From Stramenopiles sp. TOSAG23-3 (Eukaryota; Sar): DNA of 22,987 bases. Numbering within the stretch: the first letter of the stretch is position 1; each line of letters begins with the position of its first letter. The notes beneath the pieces were generated by a model that saw nothing but the letters and a program-made list of their open reading frames with translations, had not been told where the DNA came from and did no database searches. The DNA lies in the NCBI GenBank assembly GCA_900128585.1, contig LT642320.1:1-22987 (forward strand), written 5' to 3'. Positions 7,395-19,044 of the stretch are shown here, piece after piece. The position numbers and the translations under genes were made by a program.

Positions 7395-10300
7395 ATGCAC
7401 CCTCACAATGAGTCGCGGGCAAATACCTACGAAGGCAGGCTTCCTGACCTCAAGCTGGAAAAAAGGTATGTCGAGCTCAAGGAAATGAGTTCCCTGACGT
7501 CTATCCTTGAAAATTCTTCAAGTGGGTCGACGATTGGCACAGAAACCTTGCGTTCGCCCCCCACGTCAGATGGCCCCGCGGACATCTTGCAGCCTCTGAA
7601 GAGTGCCTTTGCTATTACACCCGCAAGCACAACAGTTGATCCTGTCATGTGGCTGACAGAGTATGCGGACAGAATCGACCAGCACCAGGCTGCCATTGAG
7701 GCTGCGTCCGCGTTTGAGGAAATGTGGCGGGCGTCCAATACGAAGGTCCTAGAAGACTGCATCGAAATGAAGGAGAAAATTGAACAACACGTTGAAAAAT
7801 TTCAAGGAAATGTTCCCATAAACAGGCAAAAGGAGCACCTTGAGACGCTTAGGGCAGACTTTAAGGCGCAGCAAGAGGCCAAAAGGGTTGCCGCGGTAAA
7901 CGTGATAAAGGCCAAGGAAGAGCTGAGGCTGGCAGAAGAAAAGTACCGAAAGGCTACGATCCATGCCAGGCGTGTTCGACAGCAAAGTACCATTACGGAA
8001 GACGATCTGAAAGAGAGAGAGATATTGGTCGTGAAGCTGACCGAGGAACTGCCACGGGTGCTGGGCCATTGTGAATCCCTCGTGAGGGACGCCAGCCGGA
8101 AAGCCGAGCTTATCGATGCATTGAAGGAATACTGTGAACGGGCGACGCGGTTCTTGCAGAGTACCATGGACCCGCAAAGTGCGTTTTTGAGAATGGTAGA
8201 GCGGCTGCGTGCCCTCATTGTCCATTCCTCCGAGAACGGCGTCGTGTACAACAAGAACGCGCTGAACAGGGCCATTCACCTGGTCCGGTGCGTATGGGAT
8301 CAAGGCGCTCTGCCCCGTGAAGTTTCAACCCTGGGGAGCTGTATTGCCGCGCCCGATGGTGGAACGAGACGCAAGTTTGCCAACACGGGCAATGCCACTC
8401 ATGTTTATTTCCACGCTGGAGTAGAGCTGCACAATGTTCCCGAGCGGCACGTTGAGCAGGCGTTCAGGGTCACCAACTGTTTGAGGTACTTGAGGCAGCA
8501 CCACAACAGTTCGACTCCGTACTTTATTACTGAAATTACAAAGAGGAACGAAGTTTCGCCTAGTGCAACAATTCTCCGCCTTGTTCATTCCGGGGCCTAC
8601 TTGCAGCGTATCTTTCAAACAGCCGAGGAGGCCGCAACCTCGGCACCAGTCCCAATGGAGGGCTCCGATGACGAGCTGGTCGCCGTTGATATGGAATCGG
8701 AGGGAGAAAACGAGGAATACCACGTAGGCAAGACCTTGGTAAACACGTTTCTTGATGACGCCAGGTGGAAAAGAATTAAATGCGCTCACAAGCTGCACGA
8801 AATTGGGATTTCCTCGGACGCTGATAATGCGGCGCAAGGGCTTGAGGTCGAATACAGTGCTACTGGGGGCCTGGACGGTGCGCCGGCGCAGGAGGGCTCG
8901 CAGGGCTCACTCAAAAATAGTAGCGGCAGGGAAGGGTTGGGAACGTCCCCTGGCGGGAACGGTCGGCAGCATAATAGTGGGACGGCAAGCGCTCCCTCCA
9001 CCACCGATTTTAGCGCGTTAAGAAAGCTTTACGACAATGAGGTAATGAAGGCTATCCAAGGCGTCGATTTTTCCAGCATAAGAAGTTTGAGCCTGAAGCA
9101 AATGCTCGAGTACAGGCTAGTAAGACCGGGGCCGATCCACATTATGTACCGTGGTGTAGTGGTAACAGAAGGGGTGTTTCTTCCGAACGGCAACTTCAGA
9201 GCATTCGGGGAAGAGTACGAAACCCCGTCGGGCATGGCAATGCAGTGCATTCGAAGAAAGTTAAACCCTGATCTTCAATCGATCAGTGGCTACGTCGCTG
9301 TTCACCAAAACGGTTCAAGTCTTGCCTCGATCCGTAATAAATTTTTGAACGCTGTGAAAAAGTATTGCGGGGAAGACACACAGGGTTCGTACGAGGTCTA
9401 CGAGGATCCACCCGATTTTGAAAAAGTTCCTACCAACAATTTCAAATTTTCGCTTTTTGAAAAAGAAATTCAAAACAAAAACATAACGATAAAGCAGTTG
9501 ATCGACAGCGAATTGCTGACGCCTGGCCCAATCACGATATTTTATCACAAAAAATCCGTAGAGGCGGGAACGCTATTGAAGGACGGCACCTTCGAATATG
9601 CGGGGAACGTGTGGCAAACGCCGTCGTCTGTGGCTTTGTATGTAGCTCGAAAAGTGAATCCAGACATAAAAACACTAAATGGATACTCTGCTATAAGGCG
9701 TAAGGGGGTGAAATTAGAGACTTACCGAAAAGCATTCGTGAAAAAACTGAAGGAGGCCCATAGCAAGAAACGAACGGTGCAGGAAACGAGCGAGGAAATT
9801 GAGAAGGAAGAGACTGTGGGAACGGAAGGGCCGGCAGAAAATGTAAAAAACTCTGTCCTTAAGGCAGAGACGGAGACGATGCATCGGAGAAAGGGGGGCA
9901 AAGGGGGATCCCTCTCCCCGCGTGGCAAAGGCTCCCTCACCTCGCGTGGCAAAGGCTCCCTCACTCCGCGTAACAAAGCCCCACTGTCTCCGCGCGTGAA
10001 GGGGAAAGCCAGCACAGAGCCGGCGCGTGTTACCCGAAAAAAGACTAGGTCTCCTGGGAAAATGGAAAGCGGGTGTGGGAGCGGAGACAACGGGGCACTG
10101 CAGTACTGGCTGTTTTTAGGCGGAAAGCTAGCACTGGATCGCGAGTCTTTGATAGAAATTTGGATGAATGACGACAGAAGCGGCAAGACCCACAGTTGGC
10201 ATCGTGCCAAAATCAACCACCAGTGTGGAAAGTACGAGTACAAGTACCATTTTATTGCCGACTCGAACAAAAGATCGTACGTGCTGAATGTGTTGCATCA

Positions 10301-11462
10301 TTTATGGCGCCATGTGAAAGAAAGTGAGCTAGTGGTGAGCCGAACTGGCCGCGTCCGAAAACGTCCCCAGCGGTTTGAGAGTATGCCTAATTTGCCCCAA
10401 CTTGCCTCTAGCAAGCGAAAATTGAAGGACGAGCCAGGGCAACCGGTCGAAAAGAAGAGGCGGTTTGAAGCATATAGCAGACCAACCTACCTAATTGAGG
10501 ATCACGACGACGTCGGTGAAAGAGGCAGCAGCAACAGCAGCGATAGCGATGAAGAGTCAGGCGAGGGTGGGCTTGAGGACACGTTTGTGTCGAACAAGTC
10601 CCACGTTGCATGCATGCAGGCAGCCGGCGTTGTGTGCAAAGCTGTTGATGACATCATGTCGCTCGCTTCCCCCGTCGGCAAAGTGTTCTGCCTTGTCAGG
10701 CCCCCGGGGCATCATGTAGGCCGCTACGGTCGCACAAGTGGCTGCTGCTCGCATGGCTTTTGCTTGGTAAATAACGTGGCCATTGGTGTCATGAAAGCCA
10801 AGGTTGACCACGGGTGCAAGCGTGTTGCAGTCGTTGATTTTGATGTTCACTTTGGGAACGGAACCTATGAAATTTTTGAAGAAGACGACGATACACTGTT
10901 CATATCTGTGCACAAGGCAGACACTGGCGAAGGGGATGTCTTCTTTGGCTCAGACTTGCCAGGCGTCGATGACGTTAGCCGACAAAACATTTGCATATCT
11001 ATTGATGGGGGGATTCAGAAACCTAACCACCGTGGAGGTCGCCAGAACTTCACAGAAGCGTTTCAAAAGACTGTTTTTCCAGCCCTGGTTAACTTTGACC
11101 CCGAAATTATTTTTCTCTCCTCCGGTTTTGACGGTCACATGGATGACCCTTTAGGTGGGCACTTGGGGCTGCGCCAAAAAGATTTCAAGGAGCTGACGGA
11201 ACATATTGTTCGGATTGCGGAACGCCCAGGTGGATCTTGCAACGGTCGCATTGTGAGCGTGCTCGAAGGCGGTTACGATGCCAACAGAAAGAACGGGTCG
11301 TTGCAAAAATGCGTAAATGCCCACGTCAAAGCCCTGTGCATACCGTCCAGCAGAGAGGAGAATGCAGCAGGGGGTTCCGGGGGACAGGATGCCGGGACTT
11401 CAAAAGGCACGACCAGTGGAACAAGTGGTATTGAGAAAACGAGTTTTATTCGTTGTGTTTGA
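7395..11462 (+). CDS. Class II-type histone deacetylase with tandem RAMA domains inserted in the catalytic domain
   Basis: A 1355-residue zinc-dependent deacetylase, presumably nuclear and acting on histones. Order: helical/coiled coil (about 107-255); N-terminal HDAC piece (336-410) with HNVPERHVEQAFR (346-358, the HPE..R region of class II enzymes) and VHSGAYL (397-403); acidic linker; RAMA 1 (about 566-658) and RAMA 2 (about 697-788), each with L-x-PG, DG/NG, Y/W-x-TPS and GY-x-A motifs; an 8-residue SPR repeat (835-867); a Tudor-like segment (904-981); basic linker; C-terminal HDAC piece (1061-1316). The latter has RPPGHH (1102-1107), DFDVHFGNGT (Zn ligands D1150 and H1152), GFDGH (Zn ligand D1246) and GGY (Y1294), so catalysis should be intact. 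The two pieces add to about 330 residues, a normal HDAC. RAMA domains are known from bacterial methylase-associated proteins and eukaryotic MPND, linked to recognising methyl-adenine DNA. The ATG at 7395 has a weak context; the in-frame ATG at 7485 (residue 31) is an alternative start. Confidence 0.88.
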   Translation: MHPHNESRANTYEGRLPDLKLEKRYVELKEMSSLTSILENSSSGSTIGTETLRSPPTSDGPADILQPLKSAFAITPASTTVDPVMWLTEYADRIDQHQAAIEAASAFEEMWRASNTKVLEDCIEMKEKIEQHVEKFQGNVPINRQKEHLETLRADFKAQQEAKRVAAVNVIKAKEELRLAEEKYRKATIHARRVRQQSTITEDDLKEREILVVKLTEELPRVLGHCESLVRDASRKAELIDALKEYCERATRFLQSTMDPQSAFLRMVERLRALIVHSSENGVVYNKNALNRAIHLVRCVWDQGALPREVSTLGSCIAAPDGGTRRKFANTGNATHVYFHAGVELHNVPERHVEQAFRVTNCLRYLRQHHNSSTPYFITEITKRNEVSPSATILRLVHSGAYLQRIFQTAEEAATSAPVPMEGSDDELVAVDMESEGENEEYHVGKTLVNTFLDDARWKRIKCAHKLHEIGISSDADNAAQGLEVEYSATGGLDGAPAQEGSQGSLKNSSGREGLGTSPGGNGRQHNSGTASAPSTTDFSALRKLYDNEVMKAIQGVDFSSIRSLSLKQMLEYRLVRPGPIHIMYRGVVVTEGVFLPNGNFRAFGEEYETPSGMAMQCIRRKLNPDLQSISGYVAVHQNGSSLASIRNKFLNAVKKYCGEDTQGSYEVYEDPPDFEKVPTNNFKFSLFEKEIQNKNITIKQLIDSELLTPGPITIFYHKKSVEAGTLLKDGTFEYAGNVWQTPSSVALYVARKVNPDIKTLNGYSAIRRKGVKLETYRKAFVKKLKEAHSKKRTVQETSEEIEKEETVGTEGPAENVKNSVLKAETETMHRRKGGKGGSLSPRGKGSLTSRGKGSLTPRNKAPLSPRVKGKASTEPARVTRKKTRSPGKMESGCGSGDNGALQYWLFLGGKLALDRESLIEIWMNDDRSGKTHSWHRAKINHQCGKYEYKYHFIADSNKRSYVLNVLHHLWRHVKESELVVSRTGRVRKRPQRFESMPNLPQLASSKRKLKDEPGQPVEKKRRFEAYSRPTYLIEDHDDVGERGSSNSSDSDEESGEGGLEDTFVSNKSHVACMQAAGVVCKAVDDIMSLASPVGKVFCLVRPPGHHVGRYGRTSGCCSHGFCLVNNVAIGVMKAKVDHGCKRVAVVDFDVHFGNGTYEIFEEDDDTLFISVHKADTGEGDVFFGSDLPGVDDVSRQNICISIDGGIQKPNHRGGRQNFTEAFQKTVFPALVNFDPEIIFLSSGFDGHMDDPLGGHLGLRQKDFKELTEHIVRIAERPGGSCNGRIVSVLEGGYDANRKNGSLQKCVNAHVKALCIPSSREENAAGGSGGQDAGTSKGTTSGTSGIEKTSFIRCV
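9897..9995 (+). repeat. In-frame 24-bp repeat coding for GKGSLTPR-type units
   Basis: Four consecutive units of about 8 residues (one has 9) read GKGGSLSPR, GKGSLTSR, GKGSLTPR and NKAPLSPR. The two middle 24-base units (9924-9947 and 9948-9971) differ at only two positions. Units of S/T-P-basic type resemble the SPKK motifs of histone tails, which bind the DNA minor groove and are phosphorylated by proline-directed kinases. It lies between the RAMA pair and the Tudor-like segment of the HDAC. Confidence 0.85.
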
Positions 11463-15125: not shown

Positions 15126-15875
15126 TTACTCGGCTGGTTTACTTTCTTCCTTGGCTTCTTCTGCCGGTTTAGCGTGTGTATCTTCAGCTGAATTTTCTTC
15201 TGCAAGCTTAGCGGGTGTATCATCTGCTGGCTTTTCTTCCTTGTCCTGTTTCTTCGACTTCCTCCTCTTCTTCTTCTTTGCCCCATTCTTCTCCTTTTTT
15301 GCCCTCCTTGCTGCCCTTCGTTCTGCCAGACGACTTTTACTTTTTTTGTTTCGATTCGCTTGGAGAGTCTTTCTCAGCTCATTCGCATCCTCCATATTTT
15401 GCATGATGGCAGACGTCTCGTCCGTCGGAACGGGGCCCGTGTAAACAGGCTTCTTAATGTTTTTCGACAGGGAATCCGTCACGCGTGCGGCGCGGGCCTT
15501 TCTCAGTTTTCGTTTGAGCACTCGGCTGCTGTAGGTAACCACTGCGGCTCGAAGCATTTCCTTCATCAGTAGAAGCACGGCAAATAAGATGATAATTACT
15601 CCAATGTACTCCAGAGTGGCTAGCACAACACCCGCTGCGGGATAGTGCTCGTCGAACAATTCCTGATCAGACGGTTGGTCTACGGCAGAAATGGCCGTGG
15701 CGTTGGTGCTATTTCCAGCTTTTGGATTTGTGTCTACTGCAAAACTCAGTGCGAGTTCTTTCAGCACTGCATCATTACCAAGAGCAGCGATAGCGAGTAG
15801 TATCTCGCTGAAAAGAAGCGAGGCGTCCAACACGTTGTTTGACCCGCAGGATTTCCACGAGCATGATTTCTTTTT
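15126..15875 (-). CDS. C-terminal part of the multi-pass membrane protein (after a frame slip)
   Basis: This is the continuation, one frame over, of the protein encoded at 15876-17950. The frame has no ATG near its beginning (the first usable start codon would be a GTG at 15833) and it overlaps the upstream frame, so it is not an independent gene. Translated from the slip it gives about 249 residues: KKKSCSWKSCGSN, a hydrophobic helix (LLFSEILLAIAALG), a lumen-type stretch with N-glycosylation sequons (NST, NAT), a strong transmembrane helix (about 15600-15645, VLATLEYIGVIIILFAVLLL), then a long cytosolic-looking tail. The tail is Lys/Arg-rich and ends with imperfect repeats of KPADDTPAKLAEE type. 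TAA stop at 15126-15128. That the two helices complete a membrane domain begun in the other frame is inference, but strong. Confidence 0.7.
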   Translation of the reverse strand, partial: KKKSCSWKSCGSNNVLDASLLFSEILLAIAALGNDAVLKELALSFAVDTNPKAGNSTNATAISAVDQPSDQELFDEHYPAAGVVLATLEYIGVIIILFAVLLLMKEMLRAAVVTYSSRVLKRKLRKARAARVTDSLSKNIKKPVYTGPVPTDETSAIMQNMEDANELRKTLQANRNKKSKSRLAERRAARRAKKEKNGAKKKKRRKSKKQDKEEKPADDTPAKLAEENSAEDTHAKPAEEAKEESKPAE

Positions 15876-17950
15876 GCGAAGCTGAACAGCCGGATCACTG
15901 TGTATATGAAAACAATCATATTAATGCCAATCATCAAACTGTGCGACAGGATCTTCTTCGTGATGAAAAACAATTGAACCATGGCGATTGCCAATTTACG
16001 AAATAGCACTACTGATTCCCAAAAGTAGGACTCTGGGCGGTACTTCTCAAACATCCAGCCGTACCGTTGGCGTTTGTCGCAGTTTGGGCATTGCTGACAT
16101 GGGGACCCGTCGAATTGGAGTTTCTTACAGTTACGTTTGTCCACCCATTTCGGAAGTGTTGTGTCGGACCCGGTGCTACAACAGCGTCCATTCCATGCAA
16201 ACACTTTTCTGGCCGCAACAAAAACTGGTACTACGCAGTACACGATGAAGAGGAGTACACTGAATGCAAAAATTAGCGACCATTGCCCGCCGAGCGACAA
16301 GTCGCAGATTACCGAAGAGTCCATTACTAACCTTGGTGCCCCACCTTCCCCTTCGACGCAATTAATTCCGGATAGGACCTGTTGAAGAGTCAGTGCGTAC
16401 ACGAACACTGCCCACAAATAAAAGCCTACGGCAACAATGCGATTTTGAGAAGAGCGGCGTTGCCTCTTTAAGCCCCCGATGTTGAAATCGGAGCTCTCGA
16501 TAACCCACGAATAGTACAAGTACGAAGCAACGCTCCAGACGGCAAACACTACCAGGAGTAGTGCAGGGAAGGACATTTTCATCAAGTATGTATCCTGCGC
16601 ATCTAGCTCCCACGCACACTCCGGACTGGACGTCATTCCTGACAAATCAACGCTCAATATTTCAAGCATATCGGTAATTACCTTTTTCAGCCATGGTGGG
16701 AGGTGAACCAGGGTAAAGTCTGGCATCGCTATGCTCAACGTAATTGTGTGTGCACTCAAAACGTTGAAGGTTCTGGCGATCTGACGACTGACAACCGACG
16801 CTTGGGTGGCTGCCCCGGCCCTGACATTAACCTTTTTCACATCTGCGTCTGCCTGCTTCTTCTTCTTCTTCTCCAGCTTCTTTTTCATGGCTTTCAACTG
16901 TGCGTACACAGTATTATCGTCAAACGTTTTTTGCGCCTCCCGGTGAGCTTGGCAGGACGATAAAATAGCACCACACTGCTTGGCCTCGGACGCTCGTCCA
17001 AACGAAATTAACGTTTTGCCTTTTTGCGGAATTCTGTATTCTTTCCCCTTGTGCGGGCCTGAAACAACCAACAAGCGATCCCAAGATATAATTTTCATTA
17101 CACTTGTACCCATCCCAATTGCCATGCCGATGTCCAACGCCACAGCAGAGTCCTTCTTGATATCCTTTCCGTTTAACCTTGTCCCGTTGGTGGAGTCTAA
17201 ATCGATCAGAAACCACCGTCGGTGCTGTAGCCCTTGGCCGCCAGTGGCCTCCCCACTTCTTGCCTCCGATTCTTTCAAATAATCGTCGTCTGATGTCGTC
17301 CTTACGAACGTTACCATAACTTTCTTGTTAGTCTTTATTTTTTCCGCAAGCAGATGAATGACAGCGTTTGGCTTTGAGTCCAGCGGCACGTCGTCGTCGT
17401 CAATAGCTTCGATCCTGTCGCCCTTCTCGACGCCTTCTTTCTCTGCCGCCGATCCCGGAACCACGTCCTCGACAATCATGTTTTCTCCAACCTTGATGCC
17501 GATTCTCCCAGTAAACACGACGTCATAGTCGTCCATGTTCGTGTTAATCAGCTCCCCATCTTCGTTGAAAATCGCGTCTGAAATGTCAATGACGCAATGC
17601 AAGGCGGACATCTCCTCTTCTTGGTACAGGGACACGGCGACTTGGCTGGCCACCGTATGGTTCCTCGCAAAAAACTGGGATGCATCTACGGTGCTGTTGC
17701 TGTTATTCGCCTCTCCTAAAGTCTTGTACAGGCCGGCCGAGTCGTGCTTAACTTGCCCAACGAAGCATTCGCCGTAACTAATGTTGCAATTATTCCCGAT
17801 GTTGAAAATTCCTCGCCCTCTTGCAATCTGGCGCGATCGCTCTACCCTCTGAAGGAAGGACGACTTGTCCAGCGGCTTTCCCAGGGTTGGCACTGCCGTC
17901 GCGGCCAAGAGGGCAGCAACGAAGCAAACTATTTTAAAACGAATTGCCAT
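15761..17950 (-). CDS. Signal peptide-PDZ-FHA-multi-TM receptor/channel-like protein, N-terminal part (frameshifted)
   Basis: As it stands this is a 729-residue frame from an ATG at 17950; the last 36 or so residues are out of frame relative to a better continuation at 15126-15875. Residues 1-24 are a signal peptide (cut near PTLG/KP). A Cys/Asn-rich segment with several N-glycosylation sequons follows (50-100). PDZ domain at about 146-216 (RIGIKV binding loop, VVPGSAAEKEGVEKGDRI). FHA-like sequence in reversed order: the C-terminal half DLDSTNGTRLNG (250-261) through MGTS, then the N-terminal half LLVVSGPHKGKEYRI..SFGRA (293-319). A Lys-rich helix (351-373). Membrane domain: SSPECAW (441-447), TM helices at about 461-482, 504-526, 556-580, 645-663 and 670-690, with a Cys cluster (590-624) and YGWMFEKYRPESYFWE (630-645) as seen in protist TRP-like/receptor-like proteins. 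The assembled product would be about 940 residues. Function unknown; a surface sensor or channel is inferred. Confidence 0.75.
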   Translation of the reverse strand: MAIRFKIVCFVAALLAATAVPTLGKPLDKSSFLQRVERSRQIARGRGIFNIGNNCNISYGECFVGQVKHDSAGLYKTLGEANNSNSTVDASQFFARNHTVASQVAVSLYQEEEMSALHCVIDISDAIFNEDGELINTNMDDYDVVFTGRIGIKVGENMIVEDVVPGSAAEKEGVEKGDRIEAIDDDDVPLDSKPNAVIHLLAEKIKTNKKVMVTFVRTTSDDDYLKESEARSGEATGGQGLQHRRWFLIDLDSTNGTRLNGKDIKKDSAVALDIGMAIGMGTSVMKIISWDRLLVVSGPHKGKEYRIPQKGKTLISFGRASEAKQCGAILSSCQAHREAQKTFDDNTVYAQLKAMKKKLEKKKKKQADADVKKVNVRAGAATQASVVSRQIARTFNVLSAHTITLSIAMPDFTLVHLPPWLKKVITDMLEILSVDLSGMTSSPECAWELDAQDTYLMKMSFPALLLVVFAVWSVASYLYYSWVIESSDFNIGGLKRQRRSSQNRIVAVGFYLWAVFVYALTLQQVLSGINCVEGEGGAPRLVMDSSVICDLSLGGQWSLIFAFSVLLFIVYCVVPVFVAARKVFAWNGRCCSTGSDTTLPKWVDKRNCKKLQFDGSPCQQCPNCDKRQRYGWMFEKYRPESYFWESVVLFRKLAIAMVQLFFITKKILSHSLMIGINMIVFIYTVIRLFSFAKRNHARGNPAGQTTCWTPRFFSARYYSLSLLLVMMQC
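15871..15875 (-). other. Frame slip in an A5 homopolymer
   Basis: The minus strand reads GCAAAAAGAAATC. In the upstream frame the residues after FAK (about 691-693) become RNHARGNPAG and run to a stop without membrane character. One additional A in the run would continue into the frame encoding KKSCSWKSCGSNNVLDASLL and two more hydrophobic helices. A sequencing indel is the simplest cause; a real mutation, programmed slippage or an unseen intron are alternatives. Confidence 0.65.
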
Positions 17951-18025
17951 ATTTGTAAGGCGATAAGAGCGATGAACAGCAAATAGAACAGTTTAAAACG
18001 ATAAACTCGTACAGAATTCCAGTGG

Positions 18026-18097
18026 CTTTCTTTCTTTCCTTTCTTTCTGTCTCTCTTTCTTTCTTTCTCTCTCTCTTTACTTTTCCTTCTCTCTCTC
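18026..18097 (+). repeat. Pyrimidine (CTTT/CT) tract
   Basis: About 70 bases are almost exclusively C/T on the + strand (thus purine on the coding strand of the adjacent minus-strand gene), beginning about 75 bases upstream of its ATG. CTTT and CT units alternate. Confidence 0.85.
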
Positions 18098-18983
18098 AAT
18101 AACCTTGGTTAGTTTTTTATTTTGTTATTTTACGCGTTACTAACTTTTGAGTCCAATGAATGCGGAGTGCGGAGTGTGATAGTGTGATGTTGAGAGGTGT
18201 TGTTGTGTAATATGTGAATAGAATTAGATAAAGTATATAGGAATAAGGAGTGATTCCATTTTTTTTTTTACTGGTGGTTGGTTGTTATTTTATTATTATT
18301 ATTTATACAATATATAAGTATAACAAAAAGGTCAAATAAAACAACTAACTAATCCACTAATGATATTGCATTCTAAAAATATAACTGAAAATATACAAAT
18401 ATAAAAAGGCAAAAAAATGAATATATTAAATACAAAGCACAAAATATAAAATAACTATTAATATATAATAAAATGAATATGGAATATATCGTTATTCGTA
18501 TAAATTATTTTTTATGAGGAATTCACGGAAAGTTTAAAGTATATAAATGTTTCTAACAGAATTCCTTTTTTTAAATATACTTTTTATACTTGATTATAAT
18601 GGGATTGAATTTTATTTTAATTTGTATAAACTGTTATTATAGTTTTTAACCAATCTTTTGAGTCTAAATTATTCTTATTTTATTATATATTGTTATTTAA
18701 TAATAAATGGAGCGCAATAATTATATTATTAATATAGATTTTGGTTCGGAGTTTTCTATTTTTGAAAACAAAAAGTGAAACGAATATTGAGATCGAACCC
18801 TAAAACTAAAACTAAAACTCTTCGCGCGTCTTGTTCACCCTTAAATAATATTAATAATTTATTTGGTTTTATTAAGCTATTTTTTACGCGTATTTTATTT
18901 TTGATTATTATTATATATCGAGAAGATCATGAAGAAAGAAGAACAACACAACAACACAACACCAAAACAAATAAACAACAAAA

Positions 18984-19044
18984 TTTCTCTCTTTTTCTCT
19001 CTCCTCTCCTCCTCTCCTCTTCTTTTTTCGTCTTTCTTCTCTTC
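18984..19044 (+). repeat. Pyrimidine (CT/CCT) tract upstream of the glycosyltransferase
   Basis: About 60 bases of nearly pure C/T, built from CTCTCCT and TTC units, in the likely promoter or 5' leader of the gene starting at 19309. Confidence 0.8.

Follow-up and report, generated by a model that had tools for sequence, protein, structure and literature searches.

The window analysed here is the whole of contig LT642320.1 of Stramenopiles sp. TOSAG23-3 (assembly GCA_900128585.1; 22,987 nucleotides), contig C579 of a genome of 12.88 Mb in 660 contigs. It carries a gene for a predicted histone deacetylase (HDAC) whose catalytic domain is interrupted by a long insert with two RAMA domains, hereafter referred to as RAMA-HDAC (Table 1). 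The gene had been described as a single one in a first-pass annotation of the window, and its frame indeed runs uninterrupted over 1355 codons: there are no internal stops between positions 7395 and 11462, compared with 72 and 71 stops in the other two forward frames. A protein that is 100% identical over the whole searched length (P0002) is encoded in a separate public record, a contig of 8324 bases.

Comparison with Pfam placed a Hist_deacetyl domain (PF00850) at residues 1053–1311 (E 5e-55, 187.3 bits with a cut-off of 27.9). The match spans profile positions 62–295 of 298 and is without the first 61. Residues H1106, H1107, D1150, H1152, D1246 and Y1294 are all found; from established knowledge of HDACs we take these to be the zinc-binding and catalytic residues. 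The same catalytic motifs are shared by HDAC6 and HDAC4, and the best PDB match is HDAC6 (E 3e-56). In the best 60 of the 75 PDB matches the best stretch starts at residue 1051 or later and covers only the C-terminal piece; in HDAC6 and HDAC4 the catalytic domain is continuous. By these features the protein is a member of the zinc-dependent HDAC family, class II type, and probably a lysine deacetylase. NCBIfam gave no match for it.

The missing beginning of the domain was sought by profile-profile comparison. A profile of the N-terminal parts (first 560, 600 and 670 residues) of three of the four family members described below, the fourth (P0005) being without that part, was placed freely by hhalign on an HDAC profile of 431 columns. 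The latter was built from nine sequences (L003, L005 and L006 from the same genome and P0006–P0011), with P0012 excluded because its record breaks off within the domain; L004, L008 and L009, which is divergent, were not part of it either. Residues 335–421 of RAMA-HDAC were placed on columns 2–95 with a score of 36.8 (E 9e-4, probability 22.6%). This score was reached by none of 200 column shuffles (maximum 23.1, mean 14.9); the reversed profile scored 13.8, and the insert region 14.5. Since the C-terminal piece occupies columns 116–431 (score 492), the two pieces are colinear and complementary, with only a variable-length loop omitted. As judged by the sequence profile, though not by Pfam, the N-terminal part of the HDAC fold appears to be complete. 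These placements bear out the first-pass annotation, which had recognized an HDAC N-terminal segment at residues 336–410, the rest of the split domain at 1061–1316 and an insertion that separates the VHSxxYL helix from the DTxS loop.

Profile columns and motifs agree on this position, the loop reading DTxVS in RAMA-HDAC. The distance from VHxxxY to DTxxS is about 660 residues in RAMA-HDAC, 565 in P0003 and 770 in P0004, and only 22–54 in the six relatives without insert that the motif search picked up (P0006–P0011); the junction loop thus tolerates changes in length. Immediately after the insert, E1061, D1062 and T1063 are the same in all four aligned proteins. Eukaryotic ankyrin-repeat HDACs (P0007–P0012 and, by eye, L005 of the same genome) belong to the nearest HDAC relatives that the search retrieved and are tree neighbours. 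They share the VHxxxY ... DTxxS junction with RAMA-HDAC, but it measures 22–54 residues in the five of six where it was determined (P0007–P0011; that of P0012 was not caught by the motif search), and their partner domains lie outside the fold, unlike the RAMA-HDAC insert.

The Pfam RAMA family (PF18755) matches the whole protein with 77.4 bits (E 9e-22) in the two stretches given in Table 1, where tandem RAMA domains had been proposed at residues 566–658 and 697–788. In the passages of PMC9963953 that deal with MPND and MYSM1, RAMA is linked to deubiquitinase domains. RAMA-HDAC resembles MPND in that RAMA is fused to a chromatin enzyme domain; the enzyme, however, is a different one, and in MPND RAMA stands before the MPN domain, not inside it (PMC9963953). 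The same passages describe direct binding of the MPND RAMA domain to the backbone of double-stranded DNA and to histones, with no base contact; DNA-backbone contacts are made by Ser113, Ser115 and Trp135, mutation of which nearly abolishes DNA binding. In our alignment these residues correspond to T610, S612 and Y633 in the first RAMA domain and to T742, S744 and Y764 in the second (MPND residue numbers were assigned to the aligned chain via SPS and GW, with spacing checked by hand). Because hydroxyl and aromatic character is kept at the MPND contact positions in both domains, the RAMA pair, by analogy, likely binds the DNA backbone; reading of N6-methyladenine (6mA) by the pair is possible. 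A 657-residue protein with an HMG-box match and one RAMA domain, encoded in the same genome (L002; contig C648, positions 37–2007), is a second candidate DNA-binding RAMA protein. It too presents RAMA in a nuclear-type protein, with a single RAMA domain and no HDAC.

A first protein search, in which the 8000 candidates sharing most words were scored, gave 11 hits: the protein itself, P0003–P0005 and seven HDACs without RAMA (P0006–P0012). P0003 and P0004, both with open frames, carry both HDAC pieces in the same domain order as RAMA-HDAC, and P0005 is an N-truncated relative with the same order in the C-terminal part present. The RAMA domains of P0005 are assigned from its alignment to P0004, a Pfam scan of P0005 having found no RAMA at E 0.1. 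Identity to RAMA-HDAC over the full alignment is 43% for P0003, 36% for P0004 and 41% for P0005. By region, the values for P0003 are 53% (N-terminal HDAC piece), 46% (first RAMA domain), 45% (second RAMA domain), 55% (Tudor-like region) and 68% (C-terminal HDAC piece); the corresponding values for P0004 are 51%, 37%, 37%, 35% and 67%. Three linkers (including residues 438–560 and 1003–1058) are 17–29% identical to P0003 and P0004, and the domains stand out as conserved islands. From these alignments, an interrupted enzyme whose order is kept and whose parts all contain conserved islands is most readily interpreted as one working protein. Querying with the RAMA-Tudor region gave one hit, the same protein, and a profile search returned two, P0002 and P0003; since the latter missed the already known P0004 and P0005, relatives are undercounted.

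In a midpoint-rooted tree of 17 rows, with three long branches flagged, the four RAMA-HDACs form one clade (support 100/99) inside a 13-row group (96/96). The clade adjoins a group with ankyrin-type HDACs (own fork 90/91, drawn open) and lies apart from the pair L004/L008 of the same genome, while L005 groups with the ankyrin HDACs P0009 and P0012, the latter from Ectocarpus, a placement suggestive of a stramenopile. We assume from their motifs that L004 and L008 are class I enzymes, and the class names of the other rows are likewise presumed. On this basis RAMA-HDAC appears to group with class II, not class I.

The RAMA-HDAC architecture is real, conserved and unusual, and is made within known families. 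No report of a RAMA-deacetylase fusion or of a split HDAC loop was found in the literature searched, mostly by title; such fusions may be listed in a 2016 survey of adenine methylation in eukaryotes (Iyer and colleagues, BioEssays). In this protein nature offers a clear example of an HDAC that accommodates a very large domain insertion at the presumed rim of its active site.

Table 1. Features of the RAMA-HDAC gene and predicted protein (positions in the window)
Feature	Positions	Strand	Residues	Basis and remarks
Whole gene	7395..11462	+		one 1355-codon frame, ATG start; identical protein P0002 in another record
N-terminal region	7395..8369	+	1-325	helix/coiled-coil look, by eye; 27-28% identical to P0003/P0004
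N-terminal HDAC piece, LVHSGAYLQRI	8397..8627	+	335-411	profile-profile match, columns 2-95 of 431
Acidic stretch MEGSDDEL	8637..8705	+	415-437	also in P0003 and P0004 (48% and 39% identity); composition of 412-440
RAMA domain 1	9078..9374	+	562-660	PF18755 alone E 8e-8, 32.6 bits, just below the 35.2-bit cut-off
RAMA domain 2	9462..9758	+	690-788	PF18755 alone E 1e-14, 54.5 bits; MPND RAMA 7ydt E 1.9e-8
S/T-P-R, K-rich repeat	9909..10004	+	839-870	translation
Tudor/Agenet-like domain (weak assignment)	10095..10331	+	901-979	conserved in four family members
Basic patch SRTGRVRKRPQRF	10338..10376	+	982-994	
C-terminal HDAC piece, catalytic motifs	10575..11333	+	1061-1313	PF00850; HDAC profile columns 116-431 of 431

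No Pfam family exceeded its cut-off in residues 1–325. The other contents claimed for the insert were confirmed only in part. The SPR repeat is present, but it is not seen in the aligned part of P0003 and is therefore not a conserved part. For the Tudor-like segment an Agenet match was obtained at E 0.08 in one of the four family members and none in the window's own sequence, the strand pattern being judged by eye; a PDB search with the alignment of this segment gave 27 matches, the best of which, at E 0.24, is unrelated.

A single MT-A70 gene was found in the genome (L010; contig C180, 942–3011, minus strand, 689 residues), with a DPPW motif by eye. Among the 11 chains of solved structures listed for its product at E 0.01, three called MTA9 or AMT7 rank highest (59.1–59.6 bits), followed by 'Methyltransferase MT, putative' (52 bits), another MTA9 chain (44.3 bits) and five MT-A70-family chains (18.8–24.7 bits), with a weak match of the N-terminal stretch to the TAB3 zinc finger (17.7 bits, E 0.0088); METTL3 and METTL14 are not named among the 11. 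No second MT-A70 gene and no AMT1 were found in an exon-by-exon search of this possibly incomplete genome. According to the sections of PMC12695648 on these enzymes, the DNA 6mA methylase AMT1 has AMT6/7 (MTA9) as its partner, with which it co-occurs; adenine methylation is described there as widespread across eukaryotes, with 6mA tied to permissive chromatin, and identification of its eukaryotic readers is called key. Two matches to C5-cytosine methylases were detected in the genome. The open frame L012 (contig C571, 2129 codons) matches a C5-cytosine DNA methylase in part (E 1e-7).

Taken together, we favour, with a probability of about 0.66, a class II-type zinc-dependent lysine deacetylase whose catalytic domain is split in sequence, probably whole in space, and tethered to chromatin through its insert. 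Residues 335–411, comprising the first strand and helices, would pack with the catalytic remainder (1061–1313) and close the fold, and the insert of about 650 residues would exit and re-enter at the loop that immediately precedes the substrate-gripping D1062–T1063. The two RAMA domains, the basic patch and the Tudor/Agenet-like domain may anchor the enzyme to linker DNA and nucleosomes, where it would deacetylate nearby histone tails. Several points weigh against this interpretation. The N-terminal HDAC piece alone has no Pfam match even at E 10, and its hhalign probability is low despite the E value; MPND Trp135 is replaced by Tyr/Phe; the Tudor label for residues 901–979 is weak; and class II enzymes deacetylate non-histone proteins too, which bears on the presumed histone substrate. 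The missing Pfam match and the low probability would also suit an N-truncated HDAC preceded by a chance resemblance, an idea we hold to be very improbable in view of the shuffles, the colinear and complementary columns and the identity of this piece to its counterparts in P0003 and P0004. Practically negligible is an artefact of assembly or gene modelling, with two genes read as one; it was rejected because the identical P0002 occurs in another record and P0003 and P0004 repeat both the order and the open frame.

A more active role of the insert deserves consideration. Binding of a ligand could move the loop at residue 1062 and thereby turn the active site on or off. The substrate backbone is held by an aspartate or serine of this loop in HDACs of classes I and II, and the invariance of residues 1061–1063 speaks for such gating. 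The linkers 438–560 and 1003–1058, however, may uncouple the insert from the loop mechanically, and simple tethering is favoured over gating, which we judge unlikely, because these flanking linkers are poorly conserved. Alternatively, the RAMA pair might recognize 6mA in linker DNA and bring deacetylation to 6mA-marked chromatin. The MT-A70 protein closest to the family of AMT1 partners, the second RAMA protein with its HMG box and the eukaryote-wide occurrence of adenine methylation with its sought-after readers (PMC12695648) are consistent with this proposal; RAMA was predicted as a candidate 6mA sensor, and MPND was first reported to bind, or prefer, 6mA DNA in vitro, as retold in the MPND passages of PMC9963953. 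Those passages, however, find 6mA to have no effect on MPND binding; the only MT-A70 gene found is nearer to MTA9/AMT7, the partner, than to other listed chains of the MT-A70 type; and a permissive mark would be an odd target for a deacetylase, unless acetylation is reset after transcription. On balance we consider 6mA-directed deacetylation doubtful. A combination of the two, in which linker DNA bearing 6mA and a histone mark are both read by the insert and binding switches catalysis via the adjacent substrate loop, is less probable than either and seems quite improbable. If true, such 6mA-gated reading would connect adenine methylation directly to histone deacetylation within one protein; this link is an attractive but unproven hypothesis. 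A RAMA pair built into an HDAC-type enzyme and retained in relatives of only 36–43% overall identity is a testable candidate for linking adenine methylation or linker DNA to acetylation.

Other HDAC-family proteins of the genome show features of their own. In L008 (C191) and L009 (C493) the HH dyad is QH or HQ and DxH is altered, by eye; these are likely catalytically dead paralogues, judging from their motifs. L006 (C335) has an N-terminal PHD-finger-like cysteine cluster, again by eye, and an enlarged loop at the junction that holds the insert in RAMA-HDAC.

The neighbours of the RAMA-HDAC gene in the window look eukaryotic: a kinase with EF hands (calcium-dependent-kinase-like), a tubulin-tyrosine-ligase-family gene, an L7Ae-type protein and a GT61 glycosyltransferase. 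A scan for viral contigs gave 34 pattern matches, none of which was confirmed. The light-harvesting family PF00504 was not found by exon-by-exon search of the genome, which is only weak evidence of a heterotroph. A 729-residue frame at 15761–17950 (minus strand) matches PDZ and FHA domains, an unusual combination, and G+C content falls to 24.5% at positions 18001–19000, compared with about 45–55% in the adjacent genes.

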